Assembly (NCBI GenBank): GCA_964017045.1 | Contig: OZ024811.1 | Span: forward strand, 8,953,674-9,017,673 | Source of the DNA: Omphiscola glabra | Taxonomy: Eukaryota; Mollusca; Gastropoda; Lymnaeidae | Direction of reading: 5' to 3' | Length of the DNA stretch: 64,000 bases | In this document: piece by piece, positions 6,671-63,602 of the stretch | Layout: each line of letters starts with the position of its first letter | Position numbering within the stretch: the first letter of the stretch is position 1 | Program-made: the position numbers and the translations under genes | The notes under the pieces: model-generated | Seen by the model: only the letters and a program-made list of their open reading frames with translations | Database searches by the model: none | What the model was told of the DNA's origin: nothing

Positions 6671-6692
6671 GTGACTGAATAATCTACTCAAG

Positions 6693-15883: not shown

Positions 15884-16935
15884 AAATAATAATAATAAAG
15901 TTTATTTGAAAAATCACACTTCATTCCCAAAGGCTCGAAGAGCGGTACATAGTCAACCATATTAAAAGAGAAATGAAACAATCTATGTTTTATCACATTT
16001 AAATACAAAATGCAACATTACAAAAACCAAATATGTGCATACCCATTCAAAGTCTTTCATCCCTTGCAACCATAAACAATACAAGCCAATATACATATAG
16101 GAGATAATAACTAGCTGGAAAAGATGGTAGACAACATTACCCCAGCAGGTGTTTGCAAAATAGATGTGTTTTCAAATCGGTTTTGAAGGACTCCAGTGTC
16201 TGGCTGTTTCTGAGAGCGACAGGAAGGGTCTTTCAAATTGTTGGGCCATCAAATGCGAAAGTGCGCCTTCCGTAAGTCTCAAGGCGAACACGCGGTATTG
16301 AGAGTTTGCCACTATTGGATGAGCGGAGTTGTCTAGTGGGTACATAAGGCGTCATGAGCACATTGAGATGGGATGGCACCAGGTCATGCAAGCAGCAATA
16401 GCACAGAGTTGCAATTTTCTACTCTATGTGAGCGCGGACCGGCAGCCAATGCAGTTTTCTCAGAAGTGTCGAATTTGCGTTTACGAAGAACAATGCGAGC
16501 CACATTATTGTGCTTTTTAAAATTTTATCCAGGAGCTTAGCTGGAAGACCCACCATGAAAGCATTGCAGTAGTCCATGCGTGATAGCACGAATGCAGACA
16601 TCAGCCTCTTTGATGCATCAAACGTTAAGAAAGGTCTGATATGACTAATTCTGCGCAGCTCAAAAAAATCGCCTTGCAAAGCATGTTAATGTGATTTTCC
16701 ATAGTAAGTGTTCTGTCTAAGTAGACACCCAGGTTTCGCACTGTTTGAGCAAATAAGCTCAGTCTTTTCATCGTTCAATTTGAGCTTGTTTATGGTCATA
16801 TGCTTAACTGACTCCACTGTCTTCTGTGTCATACTAAGAGGCTGAGAGATCTGAGAGGGGATCACAGATTTCTATAGTTGGGTATCATCTGCGAAATATG
16901 CCATCCTTTCTGCTATGTCTGGGCCTATTTAGTAG
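15884..16935 (-). pseudogene. CR1-like LINE remnant (reverse transcriptase 3' half)
   Basis: Read on the minus strand, the conserved RT box YFADDTQL lies at about 16877-16900. It is followed by KLKLNDEKTELI, then NLGVYLD, then RISHIRPFLTFDASKRLMSAF, LSRMDYCNA and LHWLPVRAHIE (16430-16680). The typical last block FKTDLKTHLF lies near 16165-16195. It ends at 15884-15900 in a short (ATT)n tract, the usual tail of CR1-type elements. Stops and frameshifts occur throughout, so it is inactive. The 5' part of the element is missing. Confidence 0.8.
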
Positions 16936-38800: not shown

Positions 38801-40795
38801 GCTCCTCTTTCAATTTATTCATAACAAATTATGGCTAAGCTATTAATCGAAGTCACCCATAAACCTTGTCACTGGATTTCTCCGCTGTTAGTTGCAGTGA
38901 ATACTATCTTTTGCTTAACTGAACAAAATAATAACGTGACAAATTACGTCAGACTCATGGACACATAAAAAGGCAAATGGGGATATAATGTTGTCATTTT
39001 AGTTGGTTTTTTTTTATTGTTGTTGCAATATCAAATGAGGTCACTTGTGTAAGCACAAAGCAAAATAGTATGATAATAATGATGAAACTTTGTGTTGATA
39101 TTTCTATAGCCCTTAAAAGTTATTACAAATTTTGGATTTCACATTCATGCATAAATGTATGTAAACATTCAGCATAGACCCCCACCCCTTTTATTAGCTT
39201 GATTGGAACGTTTGTCTTCCGTGCATTTCTACTTTATTCCCATTTCAGCATCTCTACTTTATTCCAATATCAACATATCTACTTTATTCCATTATCAGCA
39301 TCTCTACTTTATTCCAATATCAGCATCCCAACTTTATTCCAATATCCACTTTGATATGTTTAGTCATTTTACTATTGACAAATGTGAAATGTCACATTAG
39401 GAAATGGCATCAGCGGGCCAAGGAGCTATTGCTCCTTATGCCCTCCCCAAAGCACCCCCCCCCCCCCCTAAGCCCAAAAATCGGTCCGGGAAGTGGCATT
39501 TTGGAGATGTCCCTTTGCCAGGACGGCCCCCACCCGAGTCCGCTCGATCGGGATTTCTGCATGAGGCCGCCCTAACCCAAGGAGACCCGGTCGGTCCGAC
39601 ACTGCATACACACAGTGGAAACGATCGACTTTCCTACGGGTTGGGATGGTAAATTTATGTCCTAAAGTATTCCCCCACCCATCCCGGGGAAGCATCGGAT
39701 GCCCTATAAGAGGGTTCTACAGTGGGTTTTCACCTCGCAACTAGTTTTCAAAATAGCTGGGACGAAACGGTTGCCTGGGGTGCAGCTTTCTCAGTAATGC
39801 ATATCTAGAATCATCGACCAGAGACTTCCACCTGAGCCCTGAGCCTTGAGCCTCATATCCTTAAATGGTAACTTGTAATCATGATCCTTACCCTGTCTCT
39901 GTCTTTTCCTCCAACTGTGAAAACATCACAGCTGGCAGTCCTGTAGGAACTGTTTAATTCCGGCAGGTACCATGCTTGCCTTTGTTTGCCCACGCAGGAC
40001 ACGCAATGGTGGTCGTGTTTCCCGGATCTGGTGGCCAACGCTTCCAATTCCGCAAGACACCTCAGACTTATTGACAAATTGAAGTTCTTATCTAGAGATT
40101 ACGCCAGTTATTTGGAAATGCCATTGCGTCTTTAAAATCTTTCACAGCAAAACCTGGTGTAGACTTAAATTATACTTTTAAAAATCAGTTGTTTAATAGA
40201 GTGCAAGTGAAACCAGCATTTAGTGCTAACTATAGTGACATTAGTTGTTAATAAGAGTGCACGTGAAGCCAGCAATTAGTGCTAACTATAGTGAAATTTC
40301 TTATTTATAAGAGTGCTAATGAAGCAGGCAATAAGTGCTACCTATAGTGATTGCAAGTTTTGCTGGTAATTAGTGCTAAATATAGTGACATTTGTTTACA
40401 CGGCTTGAATGCAATCCCTCATATATTATCCTATACACAGATTATCCTACTGTTGACCTTTGTTTACACATATTACCATGCTGTTTCCAAATTTGTTTGC
40501 TCAGATCACCATACTATTTTGACATTAGTTTACACAAATTACTATACTAATTGACATTTGTTTATGCAGATTACCATACTATGTTGACATTTATATACAC
40601 AGATTACCCTACTTTGAAACAAGTGCAGTGACAGGTCAGAATGTGACAAAAGCTGTGGACTGCTTGTTGGACCGGGTTATGGCCCGCATGGATCTCTATG
40701 TGGACCAGTCACAGATGCCGAAACTAAAGAATGGTTCCAAGCACCCAGAACATCAGTCACCCCATCACATTGGCAACAATGGCTGCTCCTGTTGA
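35864..40795 (+). CDS. RAB27: Rab27-type small GTPase
   Basis: Coding exons are 35864-35957, 36753-36859, 37035-37120, 37938-38052, 38635-38747 and 40603-40795, all GT/AG, giving 235 residues. Diagnostic sequence: [13 protein letters not shown]-loop GDSGVGKT (32-39); switch I with [11 protein letters not shown]; a Rab27-type long insert before WDTAGQE (89-95); [20 protein letters not shown] (148-152); ETSA (177-180); C-terminal CSC for double geranylgeranylation. The FREKRVV stretch and [12 protein letters not shown] match Rab27A/B. Rab27 docks secretory and lysosome-related vesicles at the plasma membrane through Slp/Slac2 effectors. The N-terminus has about 15 more residues than vertebrate Rab27 (Gly/Ala-rich, starting [11 protein letters not shown]). 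The ATG is the first in-frame one in the exon, 8 bases after the acceptor. The fifth donor (GG|gttaaa) is poor. Single invertebrate Rab27 versus A/B is not resolvable. Confidence 0.96.
36895..37000. repeat. 25-bp tandem repeat in Rab27 intron 2
   Basis: Four units of TATAGATAGAGTCATTGTGT then GCTGC. It ends about 35 bp before exon 3 and so lies near the branch-point zone. Confidence 0.85.
37565..37625. repeat. 20-bp tandem repeat in Rab27 intron 3
   Basis: Three units of CAAGCTCATCTAACCTTGTG. Confidence 0.8.
38225..38455. repeat. Degenerate repeat of about 30 bp in Rab27 intron 4
   Basis: T-rich units such as TATTTGTTTATTTTCACTAG followed by GTCAATA, seven to eight diverged copies. Confidence 0.7.
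39225..39350. repeat. 25-bp tandem repeat in Rab27 intron 5
   Basis: About five units of TCTACTTTATTCCAATATCA then GCATC. Confidence 0.8.
39400..40130. mobile_element. GC-richer insert of unknown type in Rab27 intron 5
   Basis: This 0.7-kb block is clearly richer in G+C than the flanking intron, contains a C-run at about 39457-39470, and starts near GCATCAGCGGGCCAAGGAGC. Two adjacent minus-strand frames (39468-39695 and 39853-40077) have amino-acid composition unlike the repeat-derived frames, but match no family I recognise. It may be an interspersed repeat or a retroelement fragment. No terminal repeats were found. Confidence 0.35.
40140..40600. repeat. Two adjacent degenerate arrays before the last Rab27 exon
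   Basis: At 40195-40400 about four units of roughly 56 bp share AATTAGTGCTAACTATAGTG. At 40400-40600 about six units of roughly 31-35 bp share TGACATTTGTTTACACAGAT and TACCATACT. The second array runs into the splice acceptor: the word ACACAGATTACC, repeated through the array, is itself the acceptor and start of the last coding exon. Confidence 0.75.
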
Positions 40796-45489: not shown

Positions 45490-46497
45490 TTGGACTGGTT
45501 ACTGAGAGTGATATATCACATTTTTAGCCTGGTTACAGTGTGTGACATGCCACATTTTGGCCTAATTAGTGAGAGTGATATGCCACATTTTGCCCTTGTT
45601 ACTGAGATTGACATGTCACATTTTGCCCTGGTTACTGAGAGTGACATATCACATTTTAGCCTGGTTACTGCACATGACATGCCACATTTTGGCCTGGTTA
45701 CTGAGAGTGATATGTCACATTTTGTCTTGGTTACTGAGATTGACACGTCACATTTTGACCTGGTTACTGAGAGTGACATGTCCCATTTTGTCCTGGTTAC
45801 TGCACGTGACATGTCACAATTCAACCTGGTTACTGAGAGTGACATGTCACATTCTGGCATGTTTACTGAGAGTGGCATGCCACATTTTGGCCTGGTTACT
45901 GAGAGTGACATGTCACATTCTGGCATGTTTACTGAGAGTGACATGCCACCTTTTGGCCTGGTTACTGAGAGTGACATGCCACATTTTGACCTGGTTACTG
46001 CACGTGACATGTCACAATTCGACCTGGTTACTGAGAGTGACATGTCACATTCTGGCATGTTTACTGAGAGTGACATGCCACATTTTGGCCTGGTTACTGA
46101 GAGTGACATGTCACATTCTGGCATGTTTACTGAGAGTGACATGCCACATTTTGGCCTGGTTACTGAGAGTGACATGTCACATTCTGGCATGTTTACTGAA
46201 AGTGACATGCCACATTTTGGCCTGGTTACTGCACGTGACATGTCACAATTCGACCTGGTTACTGAGAGTGACATGTCACATTCTGGCATGTTTACTGAGA
46301 GTGACATGCCACATTTTGGCCTGGTTACTGAGAGTGACATGTCACATTCTGGCATGTTTACTGAGAGTGACATGCCACATTTTGGCCTGGTTACTGAGAG
46401 TGACATGTCACATTCTGGCATGTTTACTGAGAGTGACATGCCACATTTTGGCCTGGTTACTGAGAGTGACATGTCACATTTTGGCCTGGTTACTGGG
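45490..46497. repeat. 33-bp array (66-bp higher order), about 30 units
   Basis: Units contain CTGGTTACTGAGAGTGACAT and GCCACATTTTGG, alternating with a TTCTGGCATGTTTACTGAG variant to make 66-bp dimers in the second half. A third variant with ACTGCACGTGACATGTCACA recurs at intervals. Because 33 is a multiple of 3, open frames of 300-400 codons run on both strands. The protein is simply an 11-residue repeat with no initiation or splice context, so I do not call it a gene. Confidence 0.93.
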
Positions 46498-46499
46498 AG

Positions 46500-46790
46500 C
46501 GTGATCAATGTGTTGATCATTCTGGCTCCTGTTTTTGTGGAGGTTGTTTGCAATGTTTCTGTGCCTGGTATTGAAGAGGATAGTTCACTGGTTGTAAGAG
46601 TTACCCAGCGAGGGTAGCAGGAACTGGGGTTTGGAAGGTCTGAAGCAATAGACACAAATGTGTCAATGGTTGTCGCTTCAACTGTCCCTTTTGGAAGCTT
46701 GTTCCAGTCCCTGAACGTGTTTGGCAAGAATAAGCAGTTCCTGTACTGTGTTCTTGCTGTTATGAGTCGGAACTGCCTATCATGGCCTGA
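46500..46790 (-). pseudogene. LINE C-terminal fragment embedded between two 33-bp arrays
   Basis: The minus strand encodes TARTQYRNCLFLPNTFRDWN followed by KLPKGTVEATTIDTF and IASDLPNPSSCY. This matches the usual last segment of CR1/L2-like LINE proteins (SFFPRTIRDWNxLP...TVDTFK). The frame continues into the satellite on the 45.5-46.5 kb side without a stop, which is accidental fusion. It is truncated at both ends. Confidence 0.7.
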
Positions 46791-47309: not shown

Positions 47310-47809
47310 TTTATTGGCCGCTGTAGCTGGTCAGTTCGCACACAACTAACATGGACACCACGAGGGAGGGGGGCGATCAAATGACATTTACTTATATTTG
47401 GAGACGTCATACACTTTCACTGACATGAGCACATGGCATTTGAGTTCTCCTACTTCAAATAAACTATTTTTTTCCAAACAAAAAAGCTAATCTGCTGTGA
47501 TGTCGTAACCCAAAGTTGTAAAGATTTCCCCAAGTGTTCAACACGTTAAACTGATCAGGTTAAATAGATACAAACTCTCCAACATCTTTAGAAAGTTTTA
47601 TTAATGGCAGCGTCGAACTTTAAGCTTGCAAGTTAGTAAATATGAAAACTGAATATCTAATTATGTACAAACATCAACATGTTGAGTAAATTTATTGATT
47701 TTATTTTCAATAAGCTTTAGTCTTTGGTACATCACGTGGCACAAAAATAACGGTAACTCGAGCTTGAAACTCTGGCCTCGCCTAGTTATCTCCCCTGCAT
47801 TAGCCAGCT
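47310..47809 (-). other. Probable 3' UTR of the micro-exon gene
   Basis: On the minus strand AATAAA signals lie at 47691-47696, 47597-47602 and 47310-47315, about 115, 210 and 495 nt after the stop codon. No competing reading frame is present. Confidence 0.5.
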
Positions 47810-50800
47810 GTGAACAAAAAGAAATGTTTGTAAAAAGGCATCATTAGGATTGTCTGGGGAGCAATCAGCCTTACTTATCTGGACGTGGACTAACGTTAAC
47901 TTTTTTTTTTTGTGTGGCTACTTCGAAATCATTATTTTACCGAATACAAGTCATAGATTTTGTCTACTGTTACATATAAGAACATTTAGTACATAATACA
48001 AATTATTTCCAAATTGACTTACGTGCGGCTGGATAGCCACCTGAAAATATAAGGAGAAAAAACGTGTTGAGTGTTATGGTGATTTGAATATGAGAAGATG
48101 GTGTTGAGGTAGTGATATGATATGATGATAATAATGAGATGGGGATTAGACAATAACTAAGTGTTTATTTGATCAAGATAATATAGTGACTTTATAATCA
48201 TAATGATTAGATGTTGAATTGATCAAGATGATGTAGTGACTTGATAATCATAATGATTAGATGTTGAATTGATCAAGATGATGTAATGACTTGATAATCA
48301 TAATGATTAGATGTTGAATTGATCAAGATGATGTAGTGACTTGATAATCATAATGATTAAATGTTGAATTGATCAAGATTATGTAGTGACTTGATAAGCA
48401 TAATGATTAAATGTTGAATTGATCAAGATGATGTAGTGACTTGATAATCATAATGATTAGATGTTGAATTGATCAAGATGATGTAGTGACTTGATAATGA
48501 TAATGATTAGATGTTGAATTGATCAAGATGATATAGTGACTTGATAATCATAATGATTAGATGTTGAATTGATCAAGATGATATAGTGACTTGATAATCA
48601 TAATGATTAGGTGCTGATTTTAAGGAAATTCAATTGTGATTTGGTAATGCTGATGTCTTGATTTTAAAGCCTTTAAGTGATGATTTTGGGTACCACGGGT
48701 TACGCCAAGCAAGGAGCTGAGAACCCTTGGCATATATTTAACACAGTTCAAGATGACGTCATAAGTTACTATAAATATTTTTATTATTTGCGGGGGTTAG
48801 GAGGGCCCGGGGTGGGGGGGGGGTAAAAGCTCATTTGTGCAAAAGTAGAGATGTGTCCATTGATGTAAATAGCACAGGTAAAATTAAATAGCCTGGTAGA
48901 GTTGGGAGCTGTTGTTAACGACAACATTCAACACCCTTGTTTGAGGTGAGCACATAACGCGGCCCGGGGGGGGGGAACTTTATACAACTTATCTTAAACT
49001 TACCTGCTGATGGAAAGCCGCCTGCGCATGTAAGGAGAAGGTAATTTATTAATGAGATTTTGAGGTGATTTGATGGTTAATAATGATAAAATGGAGTTTC
49101 GGGTAATTGTATGATTTGATGGTGAGAGAAGCTGATGGGACTGGCAATTTGATGGTGAGTTAGTGATACAATATGTAGTCATATTATTAGGAAACATAGG
49201 AATGATGATGATACTCTTAGCTTGTAATCGATCATTAAATATTTAGCTGTCAATACTTTCGTCGTCAGTTATAATACAGCAGTACTGTCATTTGGTTGTA
49301 CTTAAATCTGTCGGTACTTTTATCGGTCAGTACTTTCATCTGCCAGCACTTTATGTAAGCACTTTTATGGGAGAACATTAATAACAAGAAATGTATTGAG
49401 TAACCAGATTGGTCAGAGATCGGGTATCGTTGATCATCATTCCGGCTTGCGACCAGCAGTGAACAAGGGAATTTACTGCCAGAAGATGTTTCAGACAAAG
49501 TCATTGTATCAAGGGCTATGCTTAAGGACAAAGAAAACTAGAATTCAAGTCACTCCAGTACAGGCCTCATAAGTCACTCCAGTAAAGGCCCCATGAGTCA
49601 ATCCAGTAAAGGCCCCATAAGTCACTACAGTAAAGGCCTCATAAGTCACTCCAGTATGGGCCTCATAAGTCACTACAGTAAAGGCCTCATAAGTCACTCC
49701 AGTATGGGCCACATAAGTCACTACAATAAAGGCCCCATAAGTCACTACAGTTGAGGCCTCATAAGTCACTCCAGTATGGGCCTCATAAGTCACTACAGTA
49801 AAGGACCCATAAGTCACTACAGTAAAGGCCTTATAAGTCACTCCAGTATGGGCCTCATAAGTCACTACAGTAAAGGCCCCATAAGTCACTACAGTAAAGG
49901 CCCCATAAGTCACTACAGTAAAGGCCCCATAAGTCACTACAGTAAAGGCCCCATAAGTCACTACAGTAAAGGCACTTCAGGATAGGTCTCCTAAGTCATT
50001 CGAGAAGGTGCTAATATAATACAGACGCTGTATCATTATCCCACAAAAACTGATGGATACCAAAAATACTGGTCAGTATCGTATATGTCAGTATTTCATA
50101 TACCAGTTCTATGTCCCTCATTATTTCATCTGTCATTAATTTCAAATGTCATTTCGTTTATCTGTCAGTACTTTCAGCAGTCTGTGCTTAAAATATGTCA
50201 GTACTTTTATCAGTTAGTACTTCTATCTGTCTGTACTTTTATCCTATGGTACTTTGATCTGTCAGCACTCACCCATTCCGAAAGCACCGTGTCCCGCGTG
50301 TCCTTGTTCTTTGGGATCTCCAAGCAAACCTGAAAAATTGTGTGGAAAGTTTGTCAAACTCATCAGTTGAAATTGGCCAGTTAGGTGTATTGTCAAATAA
50401 AGTTGTATGGAAATTGAGGGCAGGACTTATACAACTTGAGGTCCACTTACAAGCGTTACATCCCTGTATGATTGGCGTGTTAGCATGTTTTGTTTGTTTG
50501 GTTAATATTGTGGCGTCATGTATATAAAAACTTTTGTTGATGATCGCCTTTGTGTATGATGTTTTGTTGAAGTGGTGATAGCGTTAGTTGCTAGTTGCCC
50601 TCGTGTGTAGTAGTGACATGAACCGAAAGTAGTGACCGACCTTTGAGCAGACAGGATTGAACAGCTCGAAGCGTTATAGTTAATTTGAGCTTTTGGGTTG
50701 GTTTTAAAAAATAAATCTTTGTGTCACCTTTAAGTCTAATGAAAGTTGCTTATTTAAAAGATCCCTAAAAAGCGACTGATCCTTATTATCACCAACAAAA

Positions 50801-53800
50801 GAATTGTGTTGCTGATGTATACTCTGTTAAACCTGTTGCATCACTGTTGAGTGTTGCATCCTCTAGACTAGACCAGGGTTCAACAAACTTTTATGAGTGA
50901 GGAGTCATTTCTATAAAATTAGATCTTAATAGAAACTATTTTTCAATTCATAATCTCATTATAGATTAGTAGAGCCGCAGGTTGCCGACCATTGCTCTTG
51001 ATAAAAAAAAAGCTGTAACATCCAGACAAGGAGGTGTGACATGGGGGAGAGGGGGAATAAACGTATGTTTGATGTCGACACAATTTAGTGAGATTATAAT
51101 TTAAGCGTCTGCACCGGATATGGGGCTCAAAGTTTGCTCCCCCCCCCCACTCTACATTGACTGTCCCAATAGTTCTGTGTTAACGCTCAGGGTGTCTTCA
51201 CAACCTTTTGTGCCACTTTCCCCTGGTGTTGCCCCTTCTATTCCCCCTAATATTGCCCCTTCTGTCCCCATTATTTTTGCAGCTCCCCCGGAAACGTTAA
51301 ATCTATTTTTAGCCATCTCCTGTCTCGCAAGTCCAATATATTAACATAAATTATGTTAATGTTTGTCACGAAGTTGTCACTGAGATGTCATTTAAATGTG
51401 CGAGAAAAGAATAGCACAACCTGAAACATGGTTTATAACTCTGGATAGCACTACGTCACTGATGTCAGCTGGTCAAGCAGAGTTAACTAAGCGTTAAATT
51501 ATATTCACTGACAATCAAATTCTTTGGTAGAAATTAATTTTCTATTGGTAGACAGTCACATTCTATTGGTAGACGGTCTCATTCTATTGGTAGACAGTCC
51601 CATTCTATTGGTAGACAGTCACATTCTATAGGTAGACAGTCACATTATATTGGTAGACAGTCACATTCTATAGGTAGACAGTCACATTCTATAGGTAGAC
51701 AGTCACATTATATTGGTAGACAGTCACATTCTATAGGTAGACAGTCACATTCTATATGTAGGCAGTCACATTCTATAGGTAGACAGTCACATTCTATAGG
51801 TAGACAGTCACATTCTATAGGTAGACAGTCAAATTCTATAGGTAGACAGTCACATTCTATGGGTAGACACTAAATATGGTGAAATCTTGTTTTTCCTAGT
51901 TCTCTACAATGGCGTATGAAAAAAAAAGGGGGGGGGGGTGGCACCACGACAGAGTTGTCATTTAAATGGAAGGCAGGATTTTCGGCAAACTGCAGTTTTT
52001 TCTCCCGAAAGAGGGCGACAAATATTTTGGCATGCCCCGGGTTGCACTAATCATAGCTACGCCAATGTATATTTGTAGCAAGTCAATTAATTTTTTTTTG
52101 ATGTTATTCTTCTTGACTGATCTCAAAATACGCTTAAATTAACTTATACCTAAACTTTAAAATTAACCAACTTACCAATGAAATACCTTAACGTACCAGT
52201 GAACTACATTAACTTACCAATCAGCTCCCATTCTTTAGGTGTCGGTGTCCGATCTGAAAATGATAACATTGACACGTAACATCACCCTTTTTCGGATTAT
52301 TTTAGCTTAAGCGATGACACATAGACACACACGTTGACACATAGACACACACACACACATTGACACATACACACAAAACATGCCAGTAACATCCACACAT
52401 TGTTAACAAATTAAATAGAATTTAAAAACAAACATGGACACAAACACTGACACAATGTTTTTGACACAAGCGAATATACATTAACAAGGGTGAAGACATA
52501 CATTTTGACACAAACGTTGATTCAAATATTAACCTACTTGGTCTAGAGTTAACCTTCATCATTAAGATATGCATTGCTGTGTCTGGAAAATACAAGTTAT
52601 ATGTTATTACATGCGTCACACATAACAATAAGCGAAATAAAAGTGTTTCATTCAACCATAAGTCAAATATGTTGGCTCATTTAATCACGTGTCCAATACA
52701 TATATGTCTCATTGGTATATGTCTCATTGATATGTGTCTCATTGGTATGTGTCTCATTGGTATATGTCTCATTGGTATGTGTCTCATTAAAAATCAAAGT
52801 AAGTTCGTTTGCCTCATTTAACTATACTTCAAATACATTGGACCGTTAGAACCTCAGTGTTATACAGGGTGAACCAGTGATCTAAACTAAGTCGATCCCA
52901 AGCTAGTGGACTAGATTTCAATCCCCAGAAAACGCATAGACAAGCAAAAACATCCCCAGCAGCCAGGGTGGATGTTACTTGTTAACTTTTGATGGCAACT
53001 AATCTAAAAGATGGCAAACTCTGAAATCCAACCCGGAGAGGGTGCCCCGGAGATGGTGCCTCGGAGATGGTGCCCCGGAGGCGATATGGCACAACGAAAA
53101 TTCCGACTACTCCTGTGAGTAAGCGCATAAAAAACATAGTTAAACCGAGCTATTAGATAAATATGAACCAGAAGTAAATGATGTAAATTAATCAGTCAAA
53201 GCATATGTGAGCTTGCTAGGACATATGTTTCAGCTGCCATAGCTTATGTGAGCTTGCTAAGACATATGTTTCAGCTGCCATAGCGTATGTGAGCTTGCTG
53301 TGACAGATGTTTCAGCTGCCATAGCTTATGTGAGCTTGCTGTGACATATGTTTCGATGCTAAGGTGTAAACAAGGAAACGCCAGTTGTTTTTTAACAAAG
53401 ATCACAGTGAAATACAATGGTGGACACCTCCTGCATCTCGGTCTATTTCCAGTCGTCTTGCCAAAGTCTTGCCATTGGATCAAATAGGTAAGGACGAGGG
53501 AGTGAGGCTGACGAATTGAGCAACACTCCCTCACATTAAAAAAAATGCAGAATTAGCCAAGTCTAATACTGAGGTCGAAATGGGCTTAGTCATCTTTGCG
53601 TGTTAAGGACGAACAAACAATATGATATAAAGATGTCAAAGTCTAGTCCCATAAAAACACCATTCTTATTTCACCAAAACTATCGCCTGTCACAGACTTG
53701 TCATATGCAACAAAGCTATCGCCTGTCACAGACTTGTCATATGCAACAAAACTATCGCTTGTCATATGCAACAAAGCTATCGCCTGTCTTAGACTTGTCA

Positions 53801-56800
53801 AATGCAACAAAACAATCACCTGTCACAATGGCCAACACGGAGGTACGTGTAATTTGATTTGTAGATTACTATTGTTCATCCTTTATTTTATATTGGATAA
53901 GCTAATCAGTGGTGGATCGGGATTAGCACTAGAGGTAGTTCATTGAGCCCTCCCTAGAAAGTTATCTGATGCATTTAAATTGCAGTATTGCATTTTGGCG
54001 CATACCTGAATTTAGTTTTTCTTCTATCTACATCTAACCGGAGAGCGACAGTTGAGAAGTTTGTTAAAATTTAGGTGTCCCTATTCAATTCTTTTCCGAA
54101 CACTGCCTTGGTAACGATGATATTATCATAACAAATCTAACGAAACAACTAATTCATTTAGGTCTAATTTGCATAAATCTACAAATAAATGTATAATTAA
54201 GAAATGAAACTTTTCAATGTAAAAATGATTGCTTCTTTGTATATCATGCAAATAATTGGTTTAAATAAAGAGTCGTAACGTTTATAACTACAAAGTAAAA
54301 AATGGCAATTGAAAAAGCCCCAACTTTCGCAAAAAAAAGTCACATTGGGAGCTGCGGCTTCTCTTGCTCCCAACATAACTACGTTACAAGATCCAATGCA
54401 TCCATCCCTGCCTCACCACATCCTTCCACTGAGACATATCTAGTGCTTTGTTTCCATGCTTGGCTTCCCAGCTGCTGTAAAGCGTTTTCCTCACCGTCCA
54501 TCTATCTATGCCTAGGTCTGCTTTTGAGTCGTTTTCCACACCGTCCATCTATCTATGCCTAGGTCTGCTTTTGAGTCGTTTTCCACACCGTCCATCTATC
54601 TATGCCTAGGTCTGCTTTTGAGTCGTTTTCATCTGTAGTTTTGGGGGGTGCACTCTCTTCACTACTCTGTCATTTTTCACTATTGTTTATCTAACAGAAC
54701 ATGTATCAGATAGACCAGTTAGTATCAACCCAATCCTACCTTTGACTGTATCAGGCAAACTGTTGTCCCATGGATTACGTGGTGGTACCCAGTTATACCC
54801 TGTAAAGGGAGGAAATATTTTAGTGCATCATTTGTTCCTGTAATTTTTTTTATCTCAGCGTGAGATTTAAAACTGCAAACACACAGTATTGACACAAACT
54901 ACACACATGATATGACAGTAGCGATTAGTTATGTGAACGCCTTCCAGTAAATCAAATACGATTTTGTGGGATCTCTAAGGAAATAATCTGTAGAATGAGA
55001 TTGGAGGGTCCAAGGGATTAAAACTGTAATGATCTGAAAGTGGACATTAAATTAAAAATATTACATTACAAGTACAACAGCTGCTACTAACTAACACACA
55101 TATTCTGGTGAGGGTCTGTGATTAATCTCTTATGACCCCGGCTAGAGCCTTGACTACCAGCTCCATCTGCTGAGCCATTCATTTTCCTCACGTAGGGCTC
55201 TCCCACCGTCCTGGCTTCCCCCGGAACATGTAGTGAGGGACATTCGGTCAACAGCTGCGCCAGTGTTTCCGGGACCAGGCTGCGATGCCGACAGGTAGGG
55301 TCCTTGTTATCTAGCCAACAGAAGTATGTGCCGATGGGGCAGGGCTCTGTGTGCATCTGCCTCACTAGAACCAGCATACTGTAGTCCATTACTGACCCTA
55401 CACTGCTTAGAAATAGAGCTCTAAGCGTACTTGCTCCTTTGCCCCAACTTATGCAAGCCGTTTTTTTCACCGGGGACAGTTGCAACTATAGAGTATGTGA
55501 CTTGCACAGACCTAAGCCATCAATCTGTTCCTCACACAGACCAAAGCCATCAACTCATACCTAAACCATCACTCTGTTCCTCACACAGACCAATGCCATC
55601 ACTCTGTTTCTCACTCATACCTAAACCATCACTCTGTTTCTCACACAGACCTAAGCCATCACTCTGTTTCTCACATAGACCTAAGCCATCACTCTGTTTC
55701 TCACATAGACCTAAGCCATAAATCTGTTTCTCACAAACATAATACATAAAACACAATGACTTAAACATCACGTGTGTTAATGAGCCTACTTGGTGTGCCA
55801 TCAGGGTGATAGAGTGCTTCCATAAGTTTCTGGTCTGTAAAAAAAAATATAAATAAAGTGTCAAAATAATAATTCCTTAATATAATACTAGCATCAAACA
55901 AACACAATTATTAATATTAAAACAATGAAAATAACACTTTTTTACTTTGCATACACAAGGTAACTACATTAATAATGACAAATGTAATGTTCCTCAAATA
56001 TTTGTTTTATGGAATGATGAAAAAAAATGCGGAGGAAAAAAAAAAGGGGGGGGGGGGTGCTGCGATTAAATTTGGTAAAATGAAAGAAGGAAGGGGAAAT
56101 CTTGGACAGACAGTCAAAGGGAAACAACGGGTGTGTCGAGGAAACAACGGGTGTGTCGAGGAAACAACGGGTGTGTCGAGGAAACAACGGGTGTGTCGAG
56201 GAAACAACGGGTGTGTCGAGGAAACAACGGGTGTGTCGAGAAAACAACGGGTATGTCGAGGAAACAACGGGTGTGTCGAGGAAACAACGGGTATGTCAAG
56301 GAAACAACGGGTGTGTCTAGGAAACAACGGGTATGTGGAGGAAAAGCCTTTTTCAACTAATCAAAACTTTGTGAACAAAATATTTAAAAGTACGTTTCTA
56401 ATGTTGTGGAGATTTCAAGAGAGAATGTGAACAGGCAGTGAGTTAAGAGGTGTTCTGTGTGTGTAGGTGGGGGGGGTCTGATGTTGTGGAGATTTCAAGA
56501 GAAAATGTGAACAGGCAGTGAGTTAAGAGGTGTTCTTTGTGTGTAGGTGGGGGAGGGGGGCTGATGTTGTGGAGATTTCAAGAGAAAATGTGAACAGGCA
56601 GTGAGTTAAGAGTTGGTGCGTGTTCTTTGTGTGGAGGTGGGGGAGGGGGGCTGATGTTGTGGAGATTTTTAAAAAATGTGAACAGGTTGTGAGTTATGAG
56701 TTGGTGTGTGTGGGTGGGGGAGAAAAAAAATACATTTGGCGGTTACCAAGAAATGGGGCGGACAAATTGAATGGGAATGAGTTTAATACCTTTAGAGAGA

Positions 56801-59800
56801 AGAGACCTAGGGAGAAGAGACATAGAGAGAAGCGATCTAGGGAGAAGAGACATAGAGAGAAGAGACCGAGGGAGAAGAGACATAGAGAGAAGAGACCTAG
56901 GGAGAAGAGACATAGAGAGAAGAGACCTAGGGAGAAGAGACATAGAGAGAAGAGACATCGAGAGAAGAAACAGAGAGAGAGACATAGAGAGAAGAGACAT
57001 AGAGAGAAGAGACATAGAGAGTAGAGACATAGGGAGAAGAGACATAGGGAGAAGAGACATAGAGAGAAGAGACCTTTTGTTCTCGGATATCGCAGGGGAT
57101 GCAAACAACCAGGCCGGTGCCGGAAAATTGTCTATTTCTATTGTTGACAACAAATTTTCATTTGATCTGTCCAAAAATTCAAATTACGATTTGAAATGGA
57201 TGAAGGATAAGAAAATAAAGGAAAGATAAAATTTTAAAGTTTTAAAATGTTTATTTCATGAACGTACATCAAATGTACACAATCCTTACATTAATGAACG
57301 TTCTTAATATGCACACAATCTTTTCATTCATGAATTCAGTTAAATTGCACACAATCCCTGCATTCGTGAAATTACATCACATGTACAAAATCCTTACATT
57401 GACGAACATCGAAAATATGGATACACTCTTTACCTTTACAATGATCACTGGTAGTCGGTCCTGGGGGGCAATAATGGTAGCTCCTCATCATGGGGGCAGC
57501 ATACCCACCAGGGCCACTGTCTGATTAGAGAAATGTCTATATCTTTGAACATGTTTATAGAGATGTTGGTATAAGATGTTTATAGAGATGTTGGTATAAG
57601 ATGTTTACATGAAGGAGGCATAAGAAGACATTAGATACGAATTCTTACAACATACAATCAAGTGATTAGATACGAATACTTACTTGGAAGATCCATAAAG
57701 AGGCCGTTTCCAGCAGCACCCCCTCCAGGTGGCCCCGGGGGTGGCTGGGGCTGGAAGGAGGGTAATGGTTGTGGTGCAAAGTTTTGTACTGGAGCGAAAA
57801 CTGAAAGAAATTTTAAGAATATCAAAGAGAATAATAATAATGAACAATTCAATGGTTACATCGGAACAGTTTTAATATAGGAATAGTCAATGGTGGATGA
57901 ACCTTTCACTTGATTACTGGCCAGTTTACTGGCTACCCTTCTGGCCAATTCACTCGTCAGTTTACTGGCTACCCTTCTGGGCAATTCACTCGTCAGTTTA
58001 CTGGCTACCCTTCTGGGCAATTCACTCGTCAGTTCGCGCAGAAATTCATTTATGAATTAAAATTTCAGTGTACTGGCCAGTTAACAGTTCTATTAAATAC
58101 TAACTTGACTCAGTAGTTCACTGGCCAGTTAACAGTTCTATTAAATGCTAACTTGACTCAGTAGTTCAATGGTAAGTTCAATGGCTAGCTCTCTGGTAAA
58201 TTCACTAGTTGACAGATCATCTCACTGGTCACTTCATGGTCAATTCAATGATCATTTGACTGGTCAGTTCAAAGGGCGATTCATTAATCTATTCACGAGT
58301 TACATCACTGGTCAATTAAGTGGTCAATGTAGTGGTAAAAAATCTTTGTTAACGTCTTGATATTATAATCGTGTTGTGACATCATAGACATAAATCAATT
58401 TCATCAATAAGATTTTAATTTTGACTTAATTTTTATAACACTTAGTATTTTATTTTGCTTGATTGTAATTTTCATTTAAAAGCTGATTGTTTCATGTTAG
58501 TGTTAAAAACTATATTTTATGTGACGTGTCAACATATTGTTAATCAATATACTTGTAAAACAATGACAAGATAACTTAAATTTAGTAGTCATAAGACTAA
58601 GGTATGAGAAACATTAGTCATAACACTGAGACATGAGAAATATTAGTCACAACACTGAGACATGAGAAACATTAGTCACAACACTGAGGTATGAGAAACA
58701 TTAGTAACAATATTGACATAGGAAAAAGACTTATTGAATAATGTTATGCTCATTGAAGGGACATTTTAAATCCATGATATTAAGTACACACGTATAATAT
58801 ATACACACGTATTATATGTTACTTGGAATCACAAACATTTTGTTACAAGCATGACTCACAGGGTGCTAAAGGTTTCTGGGGTACTAGGGAGGGAAGGGGC
58901 GGCTTCAGGTCAAATTTGAATCCCTGTGGACCTGTTGGATTAAAACAGTTTATTCATCTCACACAAAAATTCTCGATAATAGGATACTGGTATGATCGGA
59001 AAACGTATGATACTGTCATACAAATCATTCTAGGGTTTAGGTTCTTTTGCTTTGAAGAGCACATACATTAATATCGATTTAGCATTCATTATTATCGATT
59101 ATATCGAACTTTTGGTCAATTTACACAGTCCGTGCCACTTTGAGTTTCTGAGTAGGATTCGCCTCTGTTTTCTATTGGTGGAGACTTGGCTTTTCTTTTC
59201 TAAAAATGGAATGCTATCGATTGATTGTTTTGAAAAAAAAATCTATTTGGTGGTTTATTAAAATAATTTAAAAAAACAATGCTATTTTGCCGGCATTTCG
59301 GAAAGTGGATTATGGTTTTCCTGATATCTTTTTAATTTGATTTTTGTAAAAGTGTATTCGATGAAACTATTAGTTGGGTTTTCATTATTTTGAATATTTA
59401 GAAATTTAATTAAAATCTTTTATTTAAATGTCCGATTTTCTCAGTACAGAACAGTGTGCAACTGTAGCACACGAACACGTGGTTTTAAATTTCACGTCAG
59501 CTGTTAGGTCAGAGATTTTAGGTTTGAAAATTTACGCTCAAGTTTGAGGGGAGGGAGGGTTGCTAAATTTAGGTGTACATTAACTTTCAAGGTTCGAGGA
59601 CTAAATTTAGGGGAGAATTTACGCTTGAGTTAGGGAAATGACGTAGCATTCAGGTTAGAGTAGAGTTGTAGATTTTAGGATTGAAGGTTTTTTCTTTTTG
59701 AAAAAGTATTACATTAAATTTTAAGCCCTCCCCGGAATAGTTTTTATTTCTTTAGGAGGGTAGTTAAAACAATACATTTTCTCCCTTTCCCCTTCCCATT

Positions 59801-62800
59801 TTAGAAGATGTGTTTTTGTACTACTGTTTTTTTTTTTTTGTTTTACAGCCGCCATCTTTGTTGCCGTGCACGTCTATAGTGCAAAAAACCAAGGGGAAAT
59901 GAATGGCACGGATCGCGTTAATTTAACCTAATTTTAAATTTGCATATCGATACCATAATTATTATTAATTTTCTAACGTCAATTCTTATGAATTTTTAAA
60001 GGATTATTTTTCAACGTTACTGTATAGAAAGTATAGTTCTTCATTTCAACTGACGCTTGTGTTCACTTTGCCAGCTCACCTTGGTTTCCCAACACATTTT
60101 TTATCATATCGGCCAAAACCAATCGCATGGCTGAAAGAAAAAGGAAAAACTAAAGACTGCGGCTATAGAAGTGTGAATGGCGATACACACTATGCAGATT
60201 ACGGATCTTAAACTCAGGGGTTGTCAGTGGAATATGGTTTACAGAACTTGTCAGCGGAATATGGTTTACAGAACTTGTCAGCGGAATATGGTTTACAGAA
60301 GTTGTCAGTGGAATATGGTTTACAGAAGTTGTCAGCGGAATATGGTTTACAGAAGTTGTCAGCGGAATAGCGTTTACAGCAATTGTCAGTGGAATATGGT
60401 TTACAGCAGTGCGTCAATTTGCTGATCTATTTGAGACCAGTGGTGCTTCGGATAACAAATGTTTCGTAGAATCAAACTCATCCAACAAAAGATTGCACTA
60501 AAGAAGTTATTACTTGTGGCTTTTGACCACTTATATATTTTATGTAATTTAGCTCCGTGGACCCCAACCTGTTATCAATATTTTTTTAAAAAACATTTCC
60601 TTTTATATACAAAATGTCTTTAAAATATTTTTTTTCGTGACAACTAAGACATACGCTCTGACGTTGAGGAACACTGCCTTAAGTATTAACCATATGCATG
60701 ATATTTTAAAGGGTCACCAACAACCAATGAGGACTGGAATCGTGTTTCTGAGTAAATAATTTGAAGACTGAATTAAATCCGTCGTCGCTTTGTCTTACAT
60801 GTATGTATTCTGCGATTAAGGTTTGATAAACACGTTTGAAGATTGCATTATGCCAGTCTGGTTACTGCATGTACTTTATAATATATATGGATTTTATTTG
60901 GATTGTGTGACAGGGGTCGGAAATGTTTTTTTGTGAGATGGTCCATACCATGCGCGCTTACGACATAAATAATAATAAAATTATAAAAGGCAGGCTTTCC
61001 GGATAACGGACGTTTCAAATACTCGGCGTTCGGAAAATCGATGCTCTAATGGATTTAAAAAAAATTGTTTTAAACTGGGTGGTTATTTGTTACAGAACTA
61101 ATAAAAGACATTTGATGGACTTTCAGTCAAAAATAACAACAACTTGTCACCACATTTTATTGGTCAAAAATGTTTTTGTAACACTCCTCGTCTCGTTGTG
61201 ATTTCAAGACAAAATAGAACAGAGTTTAGTTTCAGTTTAATAAGCCAACTAGTTAATTAGCAAGTTAAACCTTAAAATATTACTGCAGTTCTTAGTAACA
61301 AGAATGACATTAAGTGACAAGAATATTTAGTGACAAGGCTGACAAAATGGCTTATAATATAGAAAAGTTGTAGTTTGATGAAGACCTGTTGTGACAAATG
61401 TTACCAAAAATGTTATATGCGTAGTGAATTATTTGTGTTTAAATATTGAACAAATATTGTACGAATTTAGCTCAAACATTGTACACATGTGCCGATGTTG
61501 CCCAAATGTTATACAATTAGCGTACAAGTGTTGTACAAATCGTTTTAAAGGAAAATTAAACAAAATTGTGCAAGTTAAAACCAGACCGTGTTAGTATTTT
61601 GTTGTTACTTAAAAAAACCATTGGCAAATTTCAGTGAGACTTGTGTACAATTTACCTGGTGGTAGCGGTTGGTTGTTTAGCTGTGGAGCTGACGTCACAA
61701 CTGTGGAGGAAAATTGTGTGAGTGAATTAAATATAACATCTTAAAATACAATAGTGAACATCAATGTTTCAAAATATACAATATATTGTACACTATGATA
61801 TGGACATTTGTACACTATGATATGGACATCTGTACACTATGATTAGGTACACTATGATATGGACATTTGTACACTATGAATGGACATCTGTAGACTATGA
61901 TATGGACATTTGTACACTATGATATGGACATCTTTACACTATGATATGGACATTTGTACACTATGATATGGACATCTGTAGACTATGATATGGACATCTG
62001 TAGACTATGATATGGGTATTTGGGCATTATGATATGGACATTTATACACTATGATATAGACATTTGTACACAATGATATGCACATTTATACACTATGATA
62101 TGGACATTTATACACTATGATATGGACATTTATACACTATGATATGGACATTTATACACTATGATATGGACATTTATACACTATGATATGGACATTTATA
62201 CACTAAGATATGGACATTTATACACTATGATATGGACATTTAAATGTGAAGAGGATGTGGGAATGGGGCGGTGGAAATAGATGAAGGTGTAAATAGAGGG
62301 AGGCGGAAATAGAGGGAGGCGGAAATAGAGGGAGGCGGAAATGTGGAGATTGAAATGGGAAGGTGGGAATGGAGAGAGATGGAAATGGAGGGATGGGGAA
62401 TGGAAAGGTAGGAAGGGAGGGTGGGGGAAAGGATGGAGGGAGGGTGGAATGGAAGAAGGGAAATGTAGGTAGGGGGAATTGAGGGAGAGGGAATGTAAGG
62501 AGGGGTAATGGAGAGAGGGGGAACTGAGGGAAGGGAATGGGGGATTGTGGAGGTTGGAATAAGGAGTGGGAATGGAGATAGAGGGAATGGCGGTAGGGGA
62601 ATGGAGGGAGGGGGAATGGACGGAATATGGAGAGTGCGGTGAATGGGGACCCGTAAATGTAGAGTTGGTAATTGGGGACCGGTAAATGGTGAGGTGGTAA
62701 TTGGGGACCGGAAAATGGTGAGGTGGTAATTGGGGACCAGAAAATGGTGAGGTGGTAATTGGGGACCGGAAAATGGTGAGGTGGTAATTGGGGACCGGTA

Positions 62801-63602
62801 AATGGTGAGGTGGTAATTGGGGAATGGTAAATGGTGAGGTGGTAATTGTGGACCGGTAAATGGTGAGGTGAGGATAGGGAGGTTGGAATGTGTTTCTGTC
62901 CTATTAATATAAGTATTATAAGTTAATATTCGAGAAATGTCTTTTGAACTTTCCAAAGTCAACCATTATAATATTATACATTTTAAATAAGATTTAATGA
63001 AGATGACTGAACTAATAAAACAATGAAAGAAAAGCAAGAGAAGGTTGGAATTATAAGAAAACGACAATAGAAGGTTGTAATTATGTGACAGTGATACACG
63101 TATTCATTGTAGGATGTACATTATTGAGTGATTTATGAGACTTTATATGTGTACAATATTTAACAGTGGATTGTGCTAAATGAGAATAATTAAAACTAAA
63201 TATATATGAAGCTAATGAAGGAGATAAACTTAAAGCCATAGAAAAATAAACGATTATAATGGATGGATTTTTGAAACCGATGATCATTTGAAACTAAACA
63301 CTATTTGAACCCTACAATGTTGTCAAATTTTTTAGAACAATGACTAATGAGATCGGTCAGGGACGCCACGATTATTATTGTAACGTTACAGTTATTGTTT
63401 AGGTTTGTGAGTGTGCTACAGATTCTTTCCCTAATTTGTCTGGCTTGATGTATGACGACAATGTAATGAGAGTCTAAGCAACTCAGTGTTTCCCACAAGA
63501 GAACACAAGTCACGATTTTCTACAAAAATATTTCAGTCGAGGGGAAATGTTTTGGCAACTTTCACTTCCTGAGCAATTTGTACCTGTATAACCCCCATCC
63601 AT
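47810..63602 (-). CDS. Unrecognised micro-exon gene: 13 coding exons, all introns phase 1
   Basis: Coding exons in transcript order are 63602-63584, 61700-61656, 60130-60080, 58931-58860, 57800-57684, 57520-57434, 55834-55790, 54799-54740, 52253-52218, 50329-50273, 49021-49004, 48040-48023 and 47817-47810. They sum to 633 nt: 210 residues plus TAA. Every junction is GT/AG and every intron is phase 1; internal exons are 45, 51, 72, 117, 87, 45, 60, 36, 57, 18 and 18 nt, all multiples of 3. The protein starts MDGGYTVVTSAPQ, has a short helical stretch LVLADMIKNVLGNQ, a Pro/Gln/Gly-rich middle (about 18% Pro overall), aromatic patches (RSYHYC, YNWVPPRNPW, KEWELIG), and ends GGFPSAGGYPAAPG. No signal peptide or membrane segment is visible, so it is probably cytosolic. 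I do not recognise the family. Because all phases match, extra or skipped exons cannot be excluded by frame alone. Exon 1 and its start are the least certain. Confidence 0.72.
48023..49021 (-). CDS. Exons 11 and 12, two homologous 18-nt micro-exons
   Basis: Exon 11 (49021-49004) and exon 12 (48040-48023) each have 18 nt. They encode GGFPSA and GGYPAA, respectively, when the split Gly is included. Donors are GTAAGTTT and GTAAGTCA; acceptors are CATGCGCAG and ATATTTTCAG. Flanking intron sequence is also alike (CTTATATTTTCAG versus CCTTACATGCGCAG; downstream AAGGAGAA... on the plus strand next to both). They look like a duplicated exon. Exon 13 then adds only P, G and the stop. Confidence 0.72.
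48110..48615. repeat. 50-bp tandem repeat, about 9-10 copies (micro-exon gene intron 11)
   Basis: Units contain TAATGATTAGATGTTGAATT and GATCAAGATGATGTAGTGAC. They start about 70 bp from the 18-nt exon 12. Confidence 0.9.
49545..49980. repeat. 24-bp tandem repeat, about 18 copies
   Basis: Units of CCCATAAGTCACTACAGTAA plus AGGC, with CCAGTATGGG variants. Being a multiple of 3, it creates a false 138-codon frame. It lies in an intron of the micro-exon gene. Confidence 0.9.
50874..50994. mobile_element. Short hAT-type MITE candidate (121 bp)
   Basis: The left end CAGGGTTCAACAAACTTTTA and the right end, reverse complement CAATGGTCGGCAACCTGCGG, both resemble hAT termini of the CAGGGGTCGGCAAACT type. 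No clear 8-bp target duplication is visible, so the ends may be eroded. Confidence 0.45.
51525..51875. repeat. 21-bp tandem repeat, about 16 copies
   Basis: Units of TATAGGTAGACAGTCACATT plus C, with TATTGG in place of TATAGG in a subset. Confidence 0.95.
52690..52795. repeat. 15-bp tandem repeat, about 7 copies
   Basis: Units GTATGTGTCTCATTG / GTATATGTCTCATTG. Confidence 0.8.
53195..53360. repeat. About 41-bp tandem repeat, 4 copies
   Basis: Units contain ACATATGTTTCAGCTGCCAT and AGCTTATGTGAGCTTGCT. Confidence 0.85.
53675..53830. repeat. About 36-bp tandem repeat, 4-5 copies of uneven length
   Basis: Units contain ACAAAGCTATCGCCTGTCAC and AGACTTGTCATATGCA, some with internal deletion. Confidence 0.75.
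54310..54500 (-). pseudogene. LINE C-terminal remnant (RTE-like)
   Basis: On the minus strand, frames mix KALDMSQWKDVVRQ and GMDALDLVT...LCWEQEKPQL. These are typical final residues of RTE-type LINE proteins. Frameshifts are evident, and only about 190 bp remain. Confidence 0.5.
54482..54628. repeat. 47-bp tandem repeat, 3 copies
   Basis: Units contain CGTTTTCCACACCGTCCATC and TATGCCTAGGTCTGCTTTTG. It borders the LINE remnant and may have been amplified from its edge. Confidence 0.9.
55087..55490 (-). pseudogene. LINE ORF2 C-terminal fragment (RNase H-bearing type)
   Basis: The minus frame contains LVRQMHTEPCPIGTYFCWLD, then DPTCRHRSLVPETLAQLLTECPSL. This fits the 'RTGH...CxCG...T.EHLL.ECP' segment that follows RNase H in some LINEs, and then EPYVRKMNGSADG where KLYGSLEDL-type sequence is usual. 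The zinc-knuckle-like spacing is not perfect, so assignment is moderate. It may be kin to the RNase H remnant at 4432. Confidence 0.45.
55530..55735. repeat. 30-bp tandem repeat, about 7 copies
   Basis: Units of CTAAGCCATCACTCTGTTTC then TCACATAGAC. It ends about 55 bp before exon 7 of the micro-exon gene. Confidence 0.9.
56125..56345. repeat. 20-bp tandem repeat, about 11 copies
   Basis: Unit GAGGAAACAACGGGTGTGTC; the first six copies are identical, later ones carry single changes (GTATGTC, GTGTGTCTAG). Frames on both strands are artefacts. Confidence 0.95.
56400..56715. repeat. About 88-bp tandem repeat, 3.5 copies
   Basis: Units start TGATGTTGTGGAGATTTCAA and contain ACAGGCAGTGAGTTAAGAG and GTGTAGGTGGGGG. 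Confidence 0.9.
56800..57080. repeat. Purine-only 15/30-bp repeat
   Basis: Units GAGAAGAGACATAGA and GAGAAGAGACCTAGG alternate. The strand is almost pure A/G. It gives false Arg/Glu/Lys-rich frames on plus and Leu/Ser-rich ones on minus. Confidence 0.9.
57684..57800 (-). CDS. Exon 5, proline/glutamine-rich low-complexity segment
   Basis: The largest exon (117 nt) lies between TTTCTTTCAG and AAGTAAGT-type sites. It encodes FAPVQNFAPQPLPSFQPQPP, then PGPPGGG and GLFMDLP. Such PQ/PG-rich runs are typical of disordered linkers or SH3/WW-binding segments. The role is inferred from composition only. Confidence 0.78.
57925..58035. repeat. 36-bp tandem repeat, 3 copies
   Basis: Units contain GTTTACTGGCTACCCTTCTG and GGCAATTCACTCGTCA. 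Confidence 0.85.
58585..58730. repeat. About 29-bp tandem repeat, 4-5 copies
   Basis: Units contain ACACTGAGACATGAGAAACA and TTAGTCACA. It lies just upstream (plus sense) of the 72-nt exon 4. Confidence 0.8.
60205..60415. repeat. 27-bp tandem repeat, 7-8 copies
   Basis: Units of GTCAGCGGAATATGGTTTAC then AGAAGTT, with GTCAGTGG variants. It sits between exons 2 and 3 of the micro-exon gene. Confidence 0.92.
61770..62245. repeat. 22-bp tandem repeat, about 20 copies
   Basis: Units of CACTATGATATGGACATTTA plus TA, with CATCTGTAGAC and CATTTGTACAC variants toward 61800-62000 and a homogeneous block at 62090-62240. Confidence 0.93.
62255..62640. repeat. Purine-rich (GGGAATGGAGGGAGG)n low-complexity block
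   Basis: Nearly 400 bp where the plus strand is mostly G and A with irregular GGAATGGAGGG/GGAAATAGAGGG units. The reverse strand is a pyrimidine tract that gives a false 240-codon Pro/Ser-rich frame. It could favour triplex or G-quadruplex structure. Confidence 0.8.
62640..62880. repeat. 29-bp tandem repeat, about 8 copies
   Basis: Units of GGGGACCGGTAAATGGTGAG plus GTGGTAATT. Confidence 0.93.
62960..63560. other. Intron 1 remainder of the micro-exon gene, nothing recognised
   Basis: AT-rich DNA without a supportable exon or repeat. Short minus frames (63081-63287, 63301-63513) lack phase-1 splice borders. Confidence 0.4.
63584..63602 (-). CDS. Candidate first coding exon of the micro-exon gene
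   Basis: ATGGATGGGGGTTATACAG is followed by the donor gtacaaat. It encodes MDGGYT plus one base, placing the next exon in phase 1. Upstream in the transcript is a GGT-rich leader that is open in the same frame for some distance, so the true start could be further 5'. The acceptor-like TAAG at about 63673 is poor. The choice rests on phase agreement, the Met and the donor. Confidence 0.5.

Follow-up and report, generated by a model that had tools for sequence, protein, structure and literature searches.

A minus-strand gene of 14 exons and 13 introns was rebuilt from the raw sequence of Omphiscola glabra; it spans ~23 kb, and all 13 introns are phase 1, i.e. each splits a codon after its first base. 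The window is the whole stretch of DNA analysed (64,000 nt; GCA_964017045.1, contig OZ024811.1, positions 8,953,674 to 9,017,673 of the forward strand); coordinates are counted from its first letter, and those above 64,000 lie past its edge. The minus-strand gene model proposed in an earlier note was confirmed, with corrections to the exon count, the start exon and the agreement with the exon size of micro-exon genes (MEGs); the gene is real and tidy, but less singular than first claimed. The favoured reading, held with moderate confidence, is that of a real 14-exon gene for a secreted Pro/Gly-rich protein, extended by gain of 1-1 exons and with a likely extracellular structural or secretion role. 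In its likeliest form the protein would be lineage-restricted, would belong to the extracellular matrix or to a secretion, and would have been built up as phase-1 introns gained exons.

Exon anatomy and possible frame-safe skipping

The model consists of the following features, for which splice scores are given where they bear on the text.

70712-70745 (C19:9024385-9024418), minus strand: candidate first exon, outside the window; 34 nt, MKWLISFLFFG, phase-1 donor 3.7
61656..61700, minus strand: exon 2; 45 nt, phase 1-1, VTSAPQLNNQPLPPA; acceptor 2.3, donor 4.7
60080..60130, minus strand: exon 3; 51 nt, phase 1-1, MRLVLADMIKNVLGNQG; top splice score of the region, 14.0
58860..58931, minus strand: exon 4; 72 nt, phase 1-1, PQGFKFDLKPPLPSLVPQKPLAPF; phase 1 the sole open phase
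57684..57800, minus strand: exon 5; 117 nt, phase 1-1; a Pro/Gln/Phe part, then a Gly-rich part
57434..57520, minus strand: exon 6; 87 nt, phase 1-1; both cysteines of the protein (its only two); phase 1 the sole open phase
55790..55834, minus strand: exon 7; 45 nt, phase 1-1, QKLMEALYHPDGTPR; weak donor, 2.1
54740..54799, minus strand: exon 8; 60 nt, phase 1-1, YNWVPPRNPWDNSLPDTVKD
52538..52582, minus strand: exon 9; 45 nt, phase 1-1, TAMHILMMKVNSRPN; phase 1 the sole open phase
52218..52253, minus strand: exon 10; 36 nt, phase 1-1, RTPTPKEWELIG; phase 1 the sole open phase
50273..50329, minus strand: exon 11; 57 nt, phase 1-1, LLGDPKEQGHAGHGAFGMG
49004..49021, minus strand: exon 12; 18 nt, phase 1-1, GFPSAG
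48023..48040, minus strand: exon 13; 18 nt, phase 1-1, GYPAAP
47800..47807, minus strand: coding part of exon 14; 8 nt, last Gly codon and TAA; acceptor 5.9
47691..47705, minus strand: two AATAAA polyadenylation signals, ~95-110 nt 3' of the stop

Each of the 12 internal exons has AG directly 5' and GT directly 3', all are multiples of 3 (45, 51, 72, 117, 87, 45, 60, 45, 36, 57, 18 and 18 nt), and a single open frame runs to the TAA. With the 34-nt outside first exon the full model comprises 693 nt and 230 residues, the first intron being 9.0 kb long. GC content: exons 51% vs introns 37%; codon positions 1/2/3, 0.60/0.49/0.44. Phase 1 is the sole open phase in 4/12 internal exons; exon 2, open in phases 1 and 2 only, is the probable end of the signal peptide and start of the mature protein.

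The earlier note had described twelve introns, all phase 1, and eleven internal exons of 18-117 nt, all multiples of 3, in a coding sequence of 633 nt closing on a stop. Intron phase, open frame, exon size range, divisibility by 3 and the closing TAA were all recovered; the counts had to be raised to 13 introns and 12 internal exons, and with the same start exon the total is 678 nt. The difference from 633 nt is 45 nt, which suggests that one 45-nt exon was missed (three exons have this length). The left edge of the gene, set at 47810, was slightly off, the stop codon being at 47800-47802 (minus strand).

The model is least secure at exons 6 and 7. The splice-score sum of exon 6 (5.4) is the lowest among the twelve, and at its site the free-phase search favours a 27-nt sub-exon (57434-57460). 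For exon 7 the rival donors 55621 and 55561 are slightly better (2.5); the resulting exons enter a minisatellite (55559-55735). An internal rival acceptor of exon 5 at 57750 scores 8.8 vs 8.5, but yields a 67-nt exon.

Just 5' of the AG of exon 12, a TGC is found (acaTGCgcag; 49022-49031, minus strand); it is one instance and may be chance. Microexon-specific enhancer motifs have been described directly before the AG of microexons.

The claim that any internal exon can be skipped without a frame change was borne out in full: all 4096 of the 4096 in-order combinations of internal exons stay open, and no exon pair creates a junction stop. Exon skipping is thus allowed by the frame-safe design, and the gene might make use of it. 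The same anatomy is obtainable by exon gain alone, so that symmetric phases do not demonstrate skipping.

In MEGs, according to the part of PMC4350168 drawn on here, most of the coding sequence lies in very small symmetric exons and the products all carry a signal peptide; by the same part of that paper, MEGs appear restricted to platyhelminths. The criterion given in the portion of PMC5825161 used is that exons of 6-36 bp make up ~80% of the coding region. Compared by description only, the gene shares with MEGs the location of most coding sequence in small symmetric exons (94% of the CDS), would share the signal-peptide start if the probable first exon outside the window is the true one, and differs in its exons of 18-117 nt vs 6-36 bp and in its Pro/Gly-rich product. 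Only 3/12 internal exons (72/651 nt) are ≤36 nt, and the median is 48 nt.

It is unlikely, on this account, that the gene is a MEG-like system outside flatworms, in which combinatorial exon skipping would give a pool of secreted variants: the exons mostly exceed the MEG size, and exon gain alone can yield their symmetry. The probable signal-peptide exon, the high share of symmetric exons, the open skip combinations and the two 18-nt exons would fit such a system, as would several weak donors (2.1-3.3; exons 4, 6, 7 and 9) and the in-frame rival splice sites within exons 5 and 6. A fuller version, slightly harder still to credit, would be an independent MEG-like locus in a non-flatworm, with a signal peptide and twelve interchangeable phase-1 exons giving up to 4096 secreted variants by skipping alone; minisatellites in the introns would promote the duplication and loss of exons. 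If the exons were skipped in vivo in a mollusc, combinatorial use of micro-exons would have arisen convergently as a way to diversify secreted proteins and would be no flatworm speciality; if they were not, the gene would be a clean case of a phase-1 signal-peptide exon possibly channelling later exon gain into one phase.

Predicted product and proposed growth of the gene

The predicted protein of 230 residues (Pro 19%, Gly 12%) would be shortened to ~214 on removal of the signal peptide; mature protein: calculated pI 8.7, two cysteines, three tryptophans; dibasic sites in the predicted protein: none; amphipathic-helix scan: modest moments. Most likely the product has a structural or secretion role outside the cell (matrix, mucus, shell or capsule type), a role suggested by its composition alone.

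Searches with the version carrying the earlier start exon gave no family in Pfam (E up to 10) and no relative in the PDB (E up to 1), and a 190-residue piece of the product found no relative among viral contigs. In the window, neither Rfam at gathering scores nor a tRNA scan gave a hit. The whole-genome search (745 Mb, 37 contigs; 225-residue version with the earlier start exon) returned 5 matches at E ≤ 1e-3, all at the gene's own locus; 9 candidates were scored, and exons of 18-45 nt could be missed. Within the 103-kb region, tblastn with the 230-residue protein returned the gene's own exons and otherwise only weak matches (E 1.4 and above). As far as the whole-genome search goes, no close second copy was found in the genome. 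Among the best-ranked titles and abstracts of the literature no mollusc gene of this design appeared, part of the terms being too broad to say much.

In overall build the gene resembles MEG, SCPP and elastin systems, and it is assigned to none of them. Vertebrate elastin has many small symmetric phase-1 exons, a Pro/Gly/hydrophobic product and frame-safe skipping; elastin is not known to occur outside vertebrates. Small symmetric phase-1 exons and a Pro/Gly product are thus common to both, whereas the exon peptides of the present gene, examined by eye, hold no repeating VPGVG and no Lys/Ala cross-link exons. In vertebrate SCPP genes phase-0 introns are ubiquitous and splicing always keeps the frame, as stated in the part of PMC6732285 drawn on here. 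With these genes (amelogenin, ameloblastin, enamelin), compared by description only, the present one would share the secreted matrix protein, a type suggested here by the predicted product, and a single, frame-safe intron phase; that phase is 0 there vs phase 1 in 13/13 introns here, and no intron of the gene is phase 0. Most shell-forming genes of Lymnaea are apparently spliced differently between tissues (PMC6007483), and no symmetric phase-1 architecture is named in the part of that paper drawn on, the comparison again being by description only.

Exons 12 and 13 look like a duplicated pair, 13/18 bases being identical; as control, this level of identity is reached in 5/18915 in-frame 18-mer pairs drawn from the remaining ten internal exons. 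No match was found between the flanks, 150 nt on either side of both exons, and the duplication, if real, would therefore be old.

For the favoured reading the following course is proposed. Exon 1 would encode a signal peptide, which would send the protein out of the cell, and would end in phase 1; behind such a phase-1 intron, only 1-1 exons could be gained, duplicated or lost without a break of the frame. All later introns would be phase 1 because the signal-peptide exon ends in that phase and only 1-1 exons are frame-safe after it. The gene would have grown as a chain of 1-1 units, and its Pro/Gly/aromatic product would act as an extracellular structural or secretion protein.

By Patthy's rule, extracellular proteins often have phase 1 after the signal peptide, together with 1-1 exons. 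A secreted protein of a different class with constitutive splicing, such as a hormone or peptide precursor, an immune effector or a seminal or egg protein, would also fit the phase-1 pattern, which would then be only the bias common to extracellular genes. Exons 3, 7 and 9, which by reading of the translation are not low-complexity, agree with such a product; zero dibasic sites, just two cysteines and the high Pro/Gly content speak against it and make it improbable.

Gene start and candidate signal peptide

In the 40 kb of upstream sequence the candidate first exon was found 6.7 kb past the window edge: ATG AAG TGG TTG ATT TCG TTC CTT TTC TTT GGA G, donor GAG|GTCAGT; AAACC directly 5' of the ATG; start context AAACCATGA. 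Its residues are basic, then hydrophobic, and between 61.7 and 77 kb it is the sole phase-1 initial exon above the hydropathy cut-off. It lies inside 400 bp with CpG o/e 0.97 and 46% GC, clear of tandem arrays; the other stretches at 45-80 kb that pass the CpG/GC filter overlap either an open stretch of low complexity (72.7-73.5 kb) or tandem arrays (56 and 62-63 kb). Joined to exon 2 it reads MKWLISFLFFGVVTSAPQ..., MKWLISFLFFGVVTSAPQLNNQ..., which is signal-peptide-like, and the junction gives MKWLISFLFFGVVTS-APQ. We take this to fit the (-3,-1) rule, with the cut presumably after VTS or TSA.

As background, 12 further hydrophobic ATG-to-phase-1-donor candidates, counted from the candidate list, lie on the two strands of 103 kb once one tandem array is set aside, a rate of ~0.06 per kb. 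About 0.5 would thus be expected by chance in the 9-kb first intron, so that a hydrophobic exon alone is no proof. The start context, the charge pattern, the base composition and the clean junction raise belief in it, and we are fairly confident that 70712-70745 is the true signal-peptide exon; the product is, on its predicted N-terminus, probably secreted. The earlier note had reported no signal peptide, which is probably wrong and came about because the first exon probably lies past the window edge; if that exon is the true one, one claimed difference from MEGs falls away.

The start exon of that note, 63584..63602 (minus strand; MDGGYT), has a very weak donor (0.58, vs 3.7 for the exon upstream and 2.1-8.7 for the other exons) and is probably not an exon. 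Its ATG and GT do preserve the frame, as expected of an intracellular gene with its start close to 63.6 kb or in some other unseen exon; given the difference in donor score, we lend little credence to a gene of this kind.

Splice-site scans, chain searches and surroundings

Candidate internal exons were scored with a generic animal splice-site matrix at cut-offs of 2 per site and 5 for the sum; these were fixed with the scores of the 12 exons known, so that all 12 pass, and were applied identically to the shuffle, plus-strand, remaining-region and other-contig controls. At 47.8-63.7 kb, 29 candidates open in some frame were obtained on the minus strand, all 12 model exons among them, vs 3 on the plus strand. 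After reduction to the best non-overlapping candidates, the minus strand keeps 15, of which 11 are symmetric and phase-1-open, and the plus strand 3, of which none is. Nine of the 15 are exact model exons; the others are overlapping variants (exons 5, 6 and 7) or lie at two unrelated places. At four of the 12 places an overlapping candidate, and not the model exon itself, scores best (55621-55834; 57684-57750; two pieces, lying within or spanning exon 6).

Controls: 200 dinucleotide shuffles, 0.98 ± 0.99 symmetric phase-1-open candidates (max 4) vs 11 in the gene; remainder of the 103-kb region, both strands (190.7 kb), 13/59 candidates symmetric and phase-1-open; contig C1, 200 kb, both strands, symmetric candidates sharing one open phase never above 4 per 16 kb. 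That there is no gene, its exons being picked by eye from noise, is hardly credible: the exons were indeed chosen by eye and the cut-offs set with their scores known, but shuffles, plus strand and other contig give ≤4 where the gene gives 11.

In the chain search with free phase, 10/12 exons stayed in phase 1 whichever of the three exon costs was used; at an exon cost of 3.5 an eleventh was kept too, but in phase 0. At an exon cost of 4.5 the free-phase chain (15 exons) scored 64.1 vs 61.6 for the symmetric phase-1 chain (14 exons), each adding two candidates in the first intron or elsewhere. The gain of the free-phase chain comes from a detour at 57.5-55.6 kb, where it takes different borders, adds a 68-nt exon and changes phase. 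This non-phase-1 detour (57434-57460, 57290-57357 and a 214-nt exon ending at 55621) has a slightly higher score, but is regarded as noise because its exon runs into the minisatellite. Two first-intron candidates present in the best chains were left out of the model: 64737-64919, in a TA-repeat stretch (score 5.7), and 67020-67031 (12 nt; score 6.3); the latter may be a true exon.

Symmetric chains in phase 0 or 2 gave 8 exons and scores of 39-40. Chain scores elsewhere: plus strand of the same stretch, 19.7 (7 exons); 32 kb upstream, 13.8; rest of the window (47.6 kb, twice as long and with other genes), 46.8 and 51.8 by strand. Since the rest of the window reaches such values, the total chain score alone does not single the gene out; its distinguishing feature is phase coherence. 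For 13/13 introns in phase 1, P = 4e-8 to 1e-6 is calculated if the phase-1 rate is 0.27-0.35 (assumed) and the choice of exons was phase-blind, which the choice by eye was not. A Rab27-like gene in the window (35921-40792, plus strand; six tblastn pieces) has introns of phases 0, 2 and 0, read from the matches at two internal exons only (86 and 115 nt).

Tandem repeats of period at least 10 make up 31% of the 103-kb region and, on contig C1 (20.0-20.2 Mb), 23% of 200 kb. For an animal genome these shares look very high; 11/13 introns of the gene carry such repeats, three of them over more than half their length. Open stretches at 55090-55485 (inside intron 7 of the gene), 16422-16685 and 45519-46790, all on the minus strand, look like decayed pieces of non-LTR retrotransposons. 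On the plus strand, an open stretch at 6675-6980 has the look of an A20-type zinc finger and is taken by us to be ZFAND5/6-like, and a 297-residue open stretch at 76983-77873 (window coordinates) has a PCPCRACRGS...WGEVNIVTATHVVFDDDE look; proteins of this sort presumably occur in mollusc genomes. A 36-nt minisatellite at 78314-78850 (minus strand) is open and carries a donor-like site in-frame in many of its units (GDCVSGLMAMIT repeats).
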